Assembly: GCF_004684205.1 (NCBI RefSeq)
Contig: NZ_SRIO01000006.1
Coordinates: 1 to 64,000, forward strand
Source of the DNA: Candidatus Macondimonas diazotrophica
GTDB taxonomy: Bacteria > Pseudomonadota > Gammaproteobacteria > UBA5335
Reading direction: 5' to 3'
DNA: 64,000 nt
Positions 36,566-40,213 of this stretch are shown here, in pieces. A program made the position numbers and the translations under genes. The notes beneath the pieces were generated by a model. That model saw only the letters and a program-made list of their open reading frames with translations. It was not told the DNA's origin and ran no database searches. Position 1 is the first letter of the stretch. The number at the start of each line of letters is the position of its first letter.

Positions 36566-37441
36566 ATGACTCAATCCAGCCGCCTTGACCAAGCCAATGC
36601 CTGGCTACAGGATCATTTGCCTCAGCATGCCCTCTCTCGACTGATGTACGGCGTGACACGGATCACCTGGCGGCCATTCAAGAACGCCTTTATCCGGGCA
36701 TTCTCCGCCATCTACGACATCAACCTCGACGAAGCGGTCAGCGCCGATCCGGATGACTACCGGCACTTCAATGCCTTTTTCACCCGCGCCCTGCGCGCAG
36801 ATGCCCGTCCACTGGCTCCAGGCGAGCTCGTGATCGCCAGTCCAGTGGATGGGCTCATCAGCCAGATCGGTACGATCAACGGCACGACCCTGATTCAGGC
36901 CAAGGGACGGGATTTTGCACTCGGCGATCTGGTCGGCGGCGATGAAGCGCTCACCCAGGCATTCAGCGGCGGAAGCTATGCCGTCATCTATCTGTCGCCG
37001 CGGGACTATCATCGCATCCACATGCCGCTTGCCGGCACCTTGGCACGCACCGGCTACATCCCCGGAAAGCTCTTCAGCGTCAATGACGCGACCGCCCGCA
37101 GTGTGCCGAATCTCTATGCCCGCAATGAGCGGGTGATTGCGCTGTTCGACACGGGCGCCGGGCCCATGGCGGTGATCTTGGTCGGGGCGATCTTTGTCGG
37201 GAGCATGGAAACGGTCTGGGCCGGCCAGATCACGCCGCCTTATCGAAAAAGCCCCAGCTGGTCCGTGTTTGCCGATGAATCGGTGCGCTTGAGTCGCGGC
37301 GCGGAATTGGGACGATTCAATATGGGCTCGACGGTGGTCTTGTTGCTCCCGCCCGGGCGGACCAGCTGGAAACCGGACCGAGTCGCCGGGACGCCGGTTA
37401 AGATGGGCGAAGCATTGGGCAATGTGACACGGATCGAGTAG
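36566..37441 (+). CDS. psd: Phosphatidylserine decarboxylase proenzyme Psd
   Basis: Psd (291 aa from this start) makes phosphatidylethanolamine at the inner membrane after self-cleavage. Conserved blocks include FNAFFTRALR, SPVDGLISQIGTI, YLSPRDYHRIHMPLAGTL, ARNERVIALFDT and GAIFVGSMETVWAG. The autocleavage site reads RFNMGSTVVLL, with MGST in place of the usual LGST; the Gly-Ser bond and pyruvoyl-forming Ser are kept. GAGG lies 5 nt before ATG 36566. The frame stays open upstream, and ATG 36452 would add 38 residues that look like a signal peptide (see findings). It is divergent from prmB. Confidence 0.94.
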   Translation: MTQSSRLDQANAWLQDHLPQHALSRLMYGVTRITWRPFKNAFIRAFSAIYDINLDEAVSADPDDYRHFNAFFTRALRADARPLAPGELVIASPVDGLISQIGTINGTTLIQAKGRDFALGDLVGGDEALTQAFSGGSYAVIYLSPRDYHRIHMPLAGTLARTGYIPGKLFSVNDATARSVPNLYARNERVIALFDTGAGPMAVILVGAIFVGSMETVWAGQITPPYRKSPSWSVFADESVRLSRGAELGRFNMGSTVVLLLPPGRTSWKPDRVAGTPVKMGEALGNVTRIE

Positions 37442-37489
37442 TGACGCGGCGCGTCGCCACTCGCGTCACAAGTTGCCGAGACGCGGCAA
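37441..37489. repeat. Two perfect dyads upstream of the sigma-54 promoter
   Basis: GTGACGCG (37441-37448) pairs with CGCGTCAC (37462-37469), 13-nt centre. TTGCCG (37473-37478) pairs with CGGCAA (37484-37489), 5-nt centre. They lie about 50-100 bp upstream of the -24/-12 element, the usual place for bacterial enhancer-binding protein sites. The first could instead be a psd 3' structure, though no T tract follows. Confidence 0.5.
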
Positions 37490-37540
37490 GCACACCATCC
37501 AAACCCCCTGAAAAGCCCTTTAACTCAACTCATTACGAGT

Positions 37541-37556
37541 TGGCACGTGTTCTGCT
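37541..37556 (+). promoter_or_regulatory. Sigma-54 (RpoN) promoter
   Basis: TGGCACG-TGTT-CTGCT matches the -24/-12 consensus TGGCACG-N4-TTGCW at all but one specified position, with the invariant GG and GC at correct spacing. Transcription would start near 37567, giving a leader of about 70 nt to the secreted-protein gene at 37639. Confidence 0.8.
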
Positions 37557-37638
37557 TGAAGCTCATTGACCCCCGATCGGCTTGATCAGATCAGATTGGG
37601 GAAAACAGCAACAATGATCCTGAGGGGAGAACACACCC

Positions 37639-38046
37639 ATGAACAAATTCCGCACGTTGGTTGGACTCACCGCTTTGGCGTTTCTGCCCATCGCGGCACA
37701 AGCTGAAATGAGCATGATGACCTACGACGAGCTGGCGGCCGTCGAGGGGCAAGCAGGCCAGTATTCCGTCTCAGCCGGTTCAATCGACCTCTTTACATTC
37801 AATACCGCCACGCTGGGCGGACTGTCGGTCGGCCCCATTGCATTGTCCGGCGTCTACGGCGCGGTCAATACCCGAGCACCCAATCTGGTTCCCACCGCCC
37901 GTGACCGGGGGCTGACGCTCGTCAATGGCGTCATTCTTCCGCCTGTAAACGCCGCCGTCCGCACCACCCTCATCGCCTCCATTCCGATTTTCGGCAGCAC
38001 GGTGGCCGATATGGTCACCCCGATCGGCGTGACGTTCACACCCTGA
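37639..38046 (+). CDS. Small secreted protein of unknown function with 'V.GQAG' motif
   Basis: Predicted exported protein of 135 aa. A clear signal peptide (1-22) ends in AAQA before EMSMM. The mature N-terminus MMTYDELAAVEGQAG matches the short 'L.D.ELA.V.GQ.G' motif seen at the start of many small gammaproteobacterial surface proteins (DUF6160-like). The rest is Gly/Ala/Thr/Val-rich with beta-strand potential (FNTATLGGLSVGPIALSGVYGAVN), no cysteine and no membrane helix. AGGGGAGA precedes the ATG, and a terminator follows 36 nt after the stop, so it is a single-gene unit behind a sigma-54 promoter. Function unknown; export could use the T2SS or stay periplasmic. Confidence 0.8.
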   Translation: MNKFRTLVGLTALAFLPIAAQAEMSMMTYDELAAVEGQAGQYSVSAGSIDLFTFNTATLGGLSVGPIALSGVYGAVNTRAPNLVPTARDRGLTLVNGVILPPVNAAVRTTLIASIPIFGSTVADMVTPIGVTFTP

Positions 38047-38081
38047 GACGATCCGTTCAAGTCACCAGTTGGACTCCTTCA

Positions 38082-38108
38082 GGCCCTCTGAAACGAGGGC
38101 CTTTTTTT
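38082..38108 (+). terminator. Rho-independent terminator of the secreted-protein gene
   Basis: Stem GGCCCTC (38082-38088) / GAGGGCC (38095-38101) with a 6-nt loop, followed by seven T. Confidence 0.93.
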
Positions 38109-38237
38109 GTTCTGGCCGGGTGTCGCCGTTAGTCCGGATCAGCACATGATTGACGGCCGTCCGAAATGGCGCCTTGATCCCTTCCACCGACCGTCATAAA
38201 GTGGCGCCCACCCGGGGATCATCCATTCGAGGACGCC

Positions 38238-38807
38238 ATGCCCAGCAAGGCCCTGCATATCCGCCACAATCTGGCCCACCGGCGGGACAAATACCGTCAG
38301 TTTCTGGGCATTGCATTGATCGCCTTGCTTTGTGTCGTTGGGGCTCCCACCACACAACACGTTTTTGCCGTGGCGGCCGGTCTCGTCATGCTCGGCATGC
38401 TCATCCGGCTGTGGGCTTCGGGACACATTAAGAAAGACCAGGAACTGGCTCAGGACGGGCCATATGCATTGGTTCGCCATCCCCTTTATGTCGGAAATCT
38501 AATCCTGCTGGCAGGTTTTTGCCTGGCGAGCGGTCAGTGGTGGTCCTATCCCGCCGCAATCGCCGTGGTCTGGGGATTTTACCCACCCGCGATCCGACGC
38601 GAAGATGCCAAACTGGAACGCCTGTTCCAAGAGCGCTGGCGCCAATGGGCACGCAGCACCCACGCGCTGATTCCGCGCTTCGATCGGCTGGACCAATGCC
38701 GGGGCGGAGCGTGGTCGTTCACCCAAAGCCTGCGTGCCAACGGGGAACCCATCATTGCCATTCTTCTGCTGTGGGGACTCTGGACACTGTTTCAACGCTT
38801 GGTCTGA
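38238..38807 (+). CDS. Isoprenylcysteine carboxyl/phospholipid methyltransferase-like membrane protein
   Basis: Integral membrane protein (189 aa) of the ICMT/PEMT superfamily. Membrane helices lie near 22-40, 44-60, 88-105 and 168-186. The SAM-binding signature is GPYALVRHPLYVGN (about 74-87), followed by the RREDAKLERLFQERWRQWAR segment with the family's E-x2-L-x3-F pattern. The natural substrate (phospholipid or other small molecule) is not known for bacterial members. It is 3 nt before a kinase-fold gene, which precedes an SH3 envelope protein, so the three probably form an operon. Confidence 0.8.
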   Translation: MPSKALHIRHNLAHRRDKYRQFLGIALIALLCVVGAPTTQHVFAVAAGLVMLGMLIRLWASGHIKKDQELAQDGPYALVRHPLYVGNLILLAGFCLASGQWWSYPAAIAVVWGFYPPAIRREDAKLERLFQERWRQWARSTHALIPRFDRLDQCRGGAWSFTQSLRANGEPIIAILLLWGLWTLFQRLV

Positions 38808-38810
38808 CCG

Positions 38811-39524
38811 GTGGAGACCCGTACGCATTTCCAGCATGGCCCGGATCACCAGGCCGTCGCGCGCTTCATCCTTCAGCAAATTCGAGACGGTCTGCCCGCG
38901 CAGAGCCAAGGAGCCCAATCGCGAATCTACCGGTACACCGACCCAAGCGGATGCTACGCCGTCAAGATTCCCCGAAGCGGCGTAATGGGCGGCTGCATCG
39001 GGCGTTGGATGATTCACCGGGAACGGCGTGTCTACGAGCGGCTCACCGGGTTGCCTGGTGTACCCCGCTGTCATGGGCTGGTGGAAGGCCGTTATCTCGT
39101 GCTCGATTTCATGGCCGGCGAGAGCTTCCGGGATGCTCAGACGCGACTGCCACCGGATCACGATTACTTCGAGCAACTCCGTATTTTGATTGACGCCATT
39201 CACGCTCGCGGCGTAGCGCACACCGACCTCAAACGCAAGGACAACTTGCTTGTTCTCGACAACGAATTGCCCTGTCTGATCGACTTCGGGGCGGCAATGG
39301 TGCGCCGGTCCGATCCGCTATCTCGCGTGCTTTTCCTGATCGCACGCCGATTCGACCGCAATGCGTGGATCAAGTTGAAATACAACGGTTACCGGAATAT
39401 CCCGCCGGATGAACGCCGGCATCTGCGCCGCTTGCCCATTGAGCGGGTTTCCCACTGGCTCAAGCGGCGCGCGCGCCATCTGCGCCGTGCACTGGTGAAA
39501 CACAAGGAACGACTTCGGCCATGA
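38811..39524 (+). CDS. Protein kinase-fold enzyme, possibly LPS-core kinase-like
   Basis: A 237-aa protein with reduced kinase features: AVKIPR near residue 50 (putative ATP-binding Lys in KIP), a catalytic loop HTDLKRKDNLLV (about 139-150) resembling HxDxxxxN, and a metal-binding DFGAAM. After the DFG the C-lobe is short, then a very basic helical tail (HWLKRRARHLRRALVKHKERL) that could bind membrane or nucleic acid. It resembles small LPS-sugar kinases (KdkA, RfaY) and RIO-like proteins, and the substrate is uncertain. It starts at GTG 38811, 3 nt after the previous stop, and overlaps the next gene by 4 nt. Confidence 0.7.
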   Translation: METRTHFQHGPDHQAVARFILQQIRDGLPAQSQGAQSRIYRYTDPSGCYAVKIPRSGVMGGCIGRWMIHRERRVYERLTGLPGVPRCHGLVEGRYLVLDFMAGESFRDAQTRLPPDHDYFEQLRILIDAIHARGVAHTDLKRKDNLLVLDNELPCLIDFGAAMVRRSDPLSRVLFLIARRFDRNAWIKLKYNGYRNIPPDERRHLRRLPIERVSHWLKRRARHLRRALVKHKERLRP

Positions 39525-40213
39525 GTCCATTTCGCTACAGCCCTTTGCGTAATTTCAGGCTAGCCCGATTCGCCGTCATCCTGCTTGTTGCAGCCGCTCT
39601 GCCTGTCTTGGCGGCACCGAACCGATTTATCAGCGACCAGTTGACTGTCGAATTGCGCCTGAAGCCTGGGGATACCATGCCCGTGACGGGGCATATCGCC
39701 GCCGGCGCTCCCGTGGAGGTCGTCTCCACATCACCCGGTGGCTGGACGCAGGTCCGTACCCGCGCGGGCCAGATCGGCTGGGTACGCAGCAATCAGGTGA
39801 TGGATGTCCCACCGATCCGGCCACGCATGGATCAAGCCAGCCGAGAATTCGCGGAACTGCGGGAACAGAACCAGCGCTTGCGCAATCAGGTCGAGGCGCT
39901 GGAAACCACCGCACTGCAAACCGGACCGGATCTCGAGCGCTTGCGCGCGGAAACCCAGCGGTTGCGAGATGCCTTGAAGCTCTCGCAGGAAGGTTTGCAC
40001 ATGGCGGAGATCAATCAAAAGTTGCGCGAAGACGTTGCCAGCCTTCGCCTCGAAATTCAGGCATTGGAACAACAAGCGGAGCGGCTGACTGACCGGAGCC
40101 GCCGGGATAACTTCATCGCCGGCGCTCTGGTCATGATTCTGGGGACGCTTGCCGGTCTGGCCATTCCACGGCTATTCGGTCTCAAACGTCCCCGACAGTG
40201 GGATCGCTGGTGA
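39521..40213 (+). CDS. SH3-domain/coiled-coil envelope protein (TIGR04211, YgiM-like)
   Basis: Inner-membrane-anchored envelope protein (230 aa). A signal sequence (about 13-32, LPVLAA) precedes a bacterial SH3 domain (RFISDQLTVELRLKPGD ... GGWTQVRTRAGQIGWVRSNQV, about 35-90). A long coiled coil (105-190) follows, then a C-terminal membrane helix (about 198-216) and a basic end. This is the TIGR04211 architecture; the molecular function is unknown but probably tied to cell wall or envelope. Its start overlaps the kinase-fold stop as ATGA. It ends immediately next to the convergent thiC stop with no terminator visible. Confidence 0.85.
   Translation: MSPFRYSPLRNFRLARFAVILLVAAALPVLAAPNRFISDQLTVELRLKPGDTMPVTGHIAAGAPVEVVSTSPGGWTQVRTRAGQIGWVRSNQVMDVPPIRPRMDQASREFAELREQNQRLRNQVEALETTALQTGPDLERLRAETQRLRDALKLSQEGLHMAEINQKLREDVASLRLEIQALEQQAERLTDRSRRDNFIAGALVMILGTLAGLAIPRLFGLKRPRQWDRW

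Follow-up and report, generated by a model that had tools for sequence, protein, structure and literature searches.

What switches on the single gene that lies behind psd at this locus of Candidatus Macondimonas diazotrophica, and where is its product meant to go? A preliminary description of the window (the whole stretch of DNA analysed, 64,000 nucleotides long) had proposed a dedicated RpoN promoter with two dyads upstream, followed by one gene for a secreted protein, possibly a surface protein that serves the cell when it grows on a special substrate. As regards the gene, this was confirmed: the only one downstream encodes a 135-aa signal-peptide protein with a VEGQAG motif and ends at a terminator. 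That a single exported protein is expressed from a sigma-54 promoter with enhancer sites is well supported too, whereas no support was found for the special substrate. The psd gene ends at 37441 and the enhancer region starts at the next base, and the unit is monocistronic, since an intrinsic terminator follows the gene (Table 1). Rfam was also searched, with no match. After the unit, at 38238-40213, the window encodes an ICMT/PEMT-like membrane methyltransferase, a kinase-like (APH/Pkinase) protein and an exported protein with SH3 and coiled-coil regions, all of them probably unrelated to it.

Table 1. Features of the DUF6160 unit and its control region (positions in the window; G002 and G003 are the two congeners)
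Feature	Position	Strand	Remarks
Enhancer dyad A, TGAC-gcggcgc-GTCg (half-sites 1 and 2)	37442..37456	.	AGTGACGC strictly conserved in two congeners
Putative PilR-type array, GTCA-caagt-TGCC-gagacgc-GGCA (half-sites 3 to 5)	37465..37488	-	
Possible IHF site ACTCAACTCATTA, 1 mismatch to WATCAANNNNTTR	37523..37535	+	weak, p about 0.02
Sigma-54 -24/-12 promoter TGGCACGTGTTCTGCT	37541..37556	+	near-consensus; kept in congeners; family enrichment
DUF6160 gene, 135 aa	37639..38046	+	orthologues 73-75% identical in G002 and G003
Intrinsic terminator, then T run	38081..38102	+	

The window protein is a member of DUF6160 (PF19657; 31.1 bits against a gathering cut-off of 27), a group with no known function and one passing mention in the literature searched. 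NCBIfam gave no match to it, FilA (NF050077) included, and its AlphaFold model (mean pLDDT 79, pTM 0.56), a beta hairpin plus a long helix, found no match in the PDB by structure search. DUF6160 occurs in five of 274 sampled genomes of the class and is strongly expanded in one bacterial family, with 21 dispersed matches in this genome and 16 in G004, from a related genus. When 68 relatives were compared, a signal peptide was followed by a leader stretch and then by mature parts of many unrelated kinds. The leader stretch ends in Q, 16 residues past the signal peptidase site, in 46 of the 59 proteins measured, and nearly all relatives carry the motif M-S-D-x-E-L-x-x-V-x-G-Q, then A or G. In the window protein, the Sec signal peptide spans about residues 1-22 and the leader EMSMMTYDELAAVEGQ residues 23-38, with a C39 cut predicted after Q38.

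Double-glycine leaders cut by C39 peptidases have hydrophobic residues at -12, -7 and -4, an acidic one at -8 and G at -2. All five positions agree in 42/68 DUF6160 proteins and at least four in 66/68 (0.4% and 9.7%, respectively, in shuffled sequences), and the window protein has the five of them (M, E, L, V, G). The conservation of the leader stretch as such follows by construction from the profile used to collect the family, which covers it, but the match of its spacing to C39 leaders does not. At -1, in the place of G, A or S, 63 of 67 have Q. The leader thus shares the L-S-x-x-E-L-x-x-I-x-G-G spacing of bacteriocin and microcin leaders, but it lies behind a Sec signal peptide and has GQ at the cut, and the peptidase that would process it is periplasmic and stands alone instead of being linked to an ABC transporter.

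Such a peptidase is encoded in all six genomes of the family, as a stand-alone C39 protein (FilB/FapD-like) beside a FilC/FapF-like pore. In G015, DUF6160 genes are found beside those of FilB (C39), FilC (FapF-like), FilD and FilF, and filB-filC adjoins DUF6160 genes also in G217. In four genomes filB-filC lies 4-5 kb from rpoN (here at G000:C2:1-9000, L252), and in G004 (C19:1-13000, L254) it is flanked by mshL/pilM-like genes on one side and by three pilT/pilU genes on the other. The peptidase scores 219/475 bits to FilB and 122/330 bits to FapD, below the NCBIfam cut-offs, and the FilC-like protein scores to FapF, below the equivalog cut-off; the one G015 DUF6160 relative scanned reached 110.6/220 bits to FilA (NF050077). 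In the PDB, FilB aligns with the solved double-glycine protease 6MPZ, with the catalytic Cys, His and Asp aligned, and judging from its N-terminal sequence it would be exported to the periplasm. No sigma-54 promoter was found before filB.

Two known systems come close to this arrangement. The Fil system (FilA, FilB, FilC, FilD and FilF, a "putative pilus system" in NCBIfam) likewise consists of a DUF6160 protein, the channel FilC and FilB as C39 peptidase, and in G015 their genes are neighbours; here, in contrast, the DUF6160 genes are dispersed and expanded, filBC is separate and the scores are below the curated cut-offs. The functional amyloid system Fap likewise combines a periplasmic C39 peptidase (FapD), an outer-membrane channel (FapF) and Sec-exported substrates, and in it FapD activity is required for secretion (PMC5557850). 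The DUF6160 proteins are not FapB/C/E-like, and their leader comes close to the canonical form, whereas the Fap proteins do not carry canonical C39 sequences (PMC5557850).

Is the GQ stretch then really a protease leader? It might instead belong to a folded mature part or be a recognition tag that is retained, with the promoter being as proposed; this would agree with the Q that replaces the last G of canonical sites and with the fact that the target of FapD itself is unclear (PMC5557850). Against it speak the L/M(-12), E(-8), L(-7), V/I(-4), G(-2) spacing, which is that of C39 leaders, and the occurrence of the motif at a fixed distance past the signal peptidase site in front of mature parts that are unrelated. 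A retained tag or folded part therefore appears rather unlikely, though it is the most serious of the alternatives considered, and we lean towards C39 processing of the leader.

Regarding the control of the gene, the GG and GC of the -24/-12 element (TGGCACGTGTTCTGCT) are separated by 10 bp, the spacing expected for sigma-54, and the site lies 98 bp before the ATG. Pattern searches of the 2.80-Mb genome gave five matches to the strict form TGGCACGN5TGCT against two for a reversed-pattern control, and 83 against 33 for a looser form, so the bare pattern alone is only mildly better than chance. The two congener orthologues have TGGCACATCCCCTGCA and TGGCACGTCTCCTGCT at the same position. Besides this -24/-12 site, both retain the half-sites discussed below and, upstream, a reading frame resembling psd, while much of the other upstream DNA has changed. 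This conservation amid otherwise diverged upstream DNA makes the site more than a chance match, and bears out the near-perfect element with correctly spaced GG and GC of the preliminary description.

The same was seen across the family. Using a matrix written after the published consensus (a scoring scheme rather than a fitted model), sites scoring at least 12 were found upstream of 12/67 DUF6160 genes in the six family genomes, with members set by Pfam coordinates, against 1/67 on the opposite strand (Fisher p 0.001). Eleven of the 12 are located 87-150 bp before the start, and the remaining one, at 278 bp, is probably a chance match. All six genomes, including this one, have rpoN. To call the promoter "dedicated" was, however, too strong, since such promoters stand before about eleven DUF6160 genes of the family and the enhancer is held in common with pilA (see below). 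The pilA promoter of this genome has a perfect IHF consensus, and the possible IHF site of the window has nearly the same offset. Such sites were seen in the window, in one congener and in that pilA promoter, but not in all relatives, and are suggestive only.

The two dyads announced at 50-100 bp upstream are exact, and they lie 52-100 bp from the -24 element: GTGACGCG/CGCGTCAC at 37441-37448/37462-37469 and TTGCCG/CGGCAA at 37473-37478/37484-37489. Each of them singly is unremarkable in GC-rich DNA. What is conserved, as the alignment of the upstream regions showed, is an arrangement of five TGACG/CGTCA half-sites at 37442-37488, spaced 10-12 bp apart, of which the dyads are parts. It reads TGACG-n5-CGTCg-n7-CGTCA-n5-TGCCG-n5-CGGCA in the window, and in the congener G002 the last pair is TGACG...CGTCA, a compensatory difference. 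The conservation of dyad A has to be taken with caution, given that its first TGA doubles as the psd stop codon in the congeners. Half-sites 3 to 5, on the minus strand, form TGCC-N7-GGCA-N5-TGAC.

The check that proved most informative was one proposed from the outset, namely to look for the same dyads and for other V.GQAG proteins elsewhere. Across the six genomes, GTCA-S-N3-CTGAC had one match 100 bp upstream of a second near-perfect sigma-54 site, in this genome, and the gene behind it, with Pfam matches to Pilin and N_methyl, is pilA, the gene of the major type IV pilin. This pilA (G000:C6:92718) is preceded by the exact array TGAC-agcctgc-GTCA-catcc-TGAC, and in G004, where pilA directly follows pilR, the same array stands before pilA. 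The window array differs from that of pilA in two of 12 positions, and these two changes compensate each other by being complementary (p 0.015 taken alone); mismatches number 0 in G002 and 1 in G003, and 0 in pilA.

To what extent is this array a property of pilA promoters in general? From the DUF6160 and pilA promoters of the family the pattern TGAC-N7-GTCA-N5-TGAC was derived. When 369 genomes of Gammaproteobacteria were scanned for it, with the further requirement that a sigma-54 site follow it at 80-110 bp, 14 matches came out, against none for the reversed-pattern control. Eleven of the 14 precede pilA (this genome's own included, the other ten being in genomes outside the family) and one precedes another DUF6160 gene, in G004; two of the matches, the own pilA and that G004 gene, were among the promoters that defined the pattern. 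When the gap between array and promoter was set at 45-75 bp, which is too short, the search did not reach the own pilA, but it recovered the two congeneric DUF6160 genes plus one pilin gene in G021. Two matches (G302:C36:162-309, L205, and G193:C191:4722-4870, L211) show the exact array and the sigma-54 site with no pilin behind, followed by what seem to be short transcripts of about 160 and 350 nt running to terminators, possibly PilR/RpoN-driven small RNAs or peptides.

Among DUF6160 genes, the array (at most 2/12 mismatches) accompanies eight of the 13 that are sigma-54-driven and one of the 51 others (Fisher p 2e-6), a count in which three of the eight are mutual orthologues and the mismatch threshold was picked after the data had been seen; at one mismatch or fewer, the figures are 7/13 and 0/51. 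The five of 13 with no close array must either have another activator or include chance sigma-54 sites. A second activator is suggested by G000:C1:89769 (L157:11770) and G002:C4:52832 (L016), two DUF6160 genes whose sigma-54 site is fair to good but which lack a PilR-type array; the former is about 3 kb from genes for a FleQ-like regulator and a fliA-like protein.

Since the matches to array plus sigma-54 site mostly precede pilA, and the control had none, the array is very probably a PilR enhancer. The genome encodes PilS (6TM_PilS, 73.8 bits; HisKA, HATPase) and PilR (receiver-AAA-Fis HTH) on the contig that also carries the window; their genes are 6-9 kb away from pilA, and the distance to the DUF6160 gene is about 45-50 kb. 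RpoN of Xylella has pilA1 as its top target, where it probably acts with PilR (PMC3224663), and for Dichelobacter nodosus PilR is reported, in work cited by PMC6058289, to control further surface proteins. PilS-PilR/RpoN control of pilA offers a close likeness, with the same near-perfect -24/-12 element, upstream array and activator encoded near pilA, except that the target here is a secreted DUF6160 protein and not a pilin. The promoter itself is of the pilA/PilR kind, well made and ordinary for sigma-54; it is the target and its leader that are unusual.

The sigma-54 promoter could nonetheless be served by a different activator, such as FleQ, NtrC or an unnamed regulator, its likeness to pilA being convergent. 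Ten sigma-54 activation domains (two of them weak matches) are found in the genome, so that about seven further activators exist; FleQ sites are similar to GTCA/TGAC half-sites, and the array-less genes described above fit this possibility too. On the other hand, the exact two-spacing array is before pilA in 11 of the 14 class-wide matches, with no match in the control, and the congeners of the window gene keep it with at most one mismatch. The NtrC consensus, TGCACC-N5-GGTGCA, was not seen by eye in the region. An activator other than PilR consequently seems improbable, and PilR, whose binding would follow from the association with pilA, is highly likely to activate the DUF6160 gene, which is best read as a member of the PilSR/RpoN regulon. 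Because the enhancer is the array found before pilA, the cue would most likely be that of PilS-PilR (pilin level, surface contact) and not a carbon source, and no evidence was found for regulation by a special substrate.

The weakest alternative, that the -24/-12 match arose by chance (the strict pattern having five matches genome-wide against two for its control) and the gene is expressed constitutively or from a different promoter, can be dismissed on the position kept in three orthologues, the enrichment across the family, the array alongside and the lack of any sigma-70-type promoter at 37300-38300, so that sigma-54 control of the DUF6160 gene is almost certain.

From what can be read in the DNA (the promoter, the array and its association with pilA, the leader motif and the presence of RpoN, PilSR, FilB and FilC), we infer the following course of events. 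Phosphorylated PilR would bind the GTCA/TGAC half-sites and contact, by looping and possibly with the help of IHF, the sigma-54 RNA polymerase at the promoter, so that the DUF6160 gene would be switched on under the same conditions as pilA. The product would be a FilA/DUF6160-type precursor, exported by Sec and cut by signal peptidase, whose next 16 residues, with their double-glycine spacing and GQ end, would be recognised by the periplasmic C39 peptidase FilB (FapD-like); the mature protein would then leave through the FilC/FapF-like pore as a surface or fibre component, a role for which the chances stand about even. Taken as a whole, a monocistronic member of the PilS-PilR/RpoN regulon with a FilB/FilC-processed surface or fibre product is the likely explanation of this locus.

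Two independent lines, the control shared with pilA and a leader that fits a periplasmic C39 peptidase, assign the DUF6160 proteins to the cell surface, along with type IV pili, and the array data provide a compact PilR enhancer signature that works across the class. It may be, with the odds evenly balanced, that this bacterial family uses a two-step route not described before, in which a Sec signal peptide is combined with a GQ-type leader cut by FilB and with export through a FapF-like pore, for a large paralogous family of surface proteins partly under PilSR/RpoN. Should that be the case, the GQ leader would be a candidate for the motif that periplasmic C39 peptidases recognise, giving this class of enzymes a concrete candidate substrate motif.
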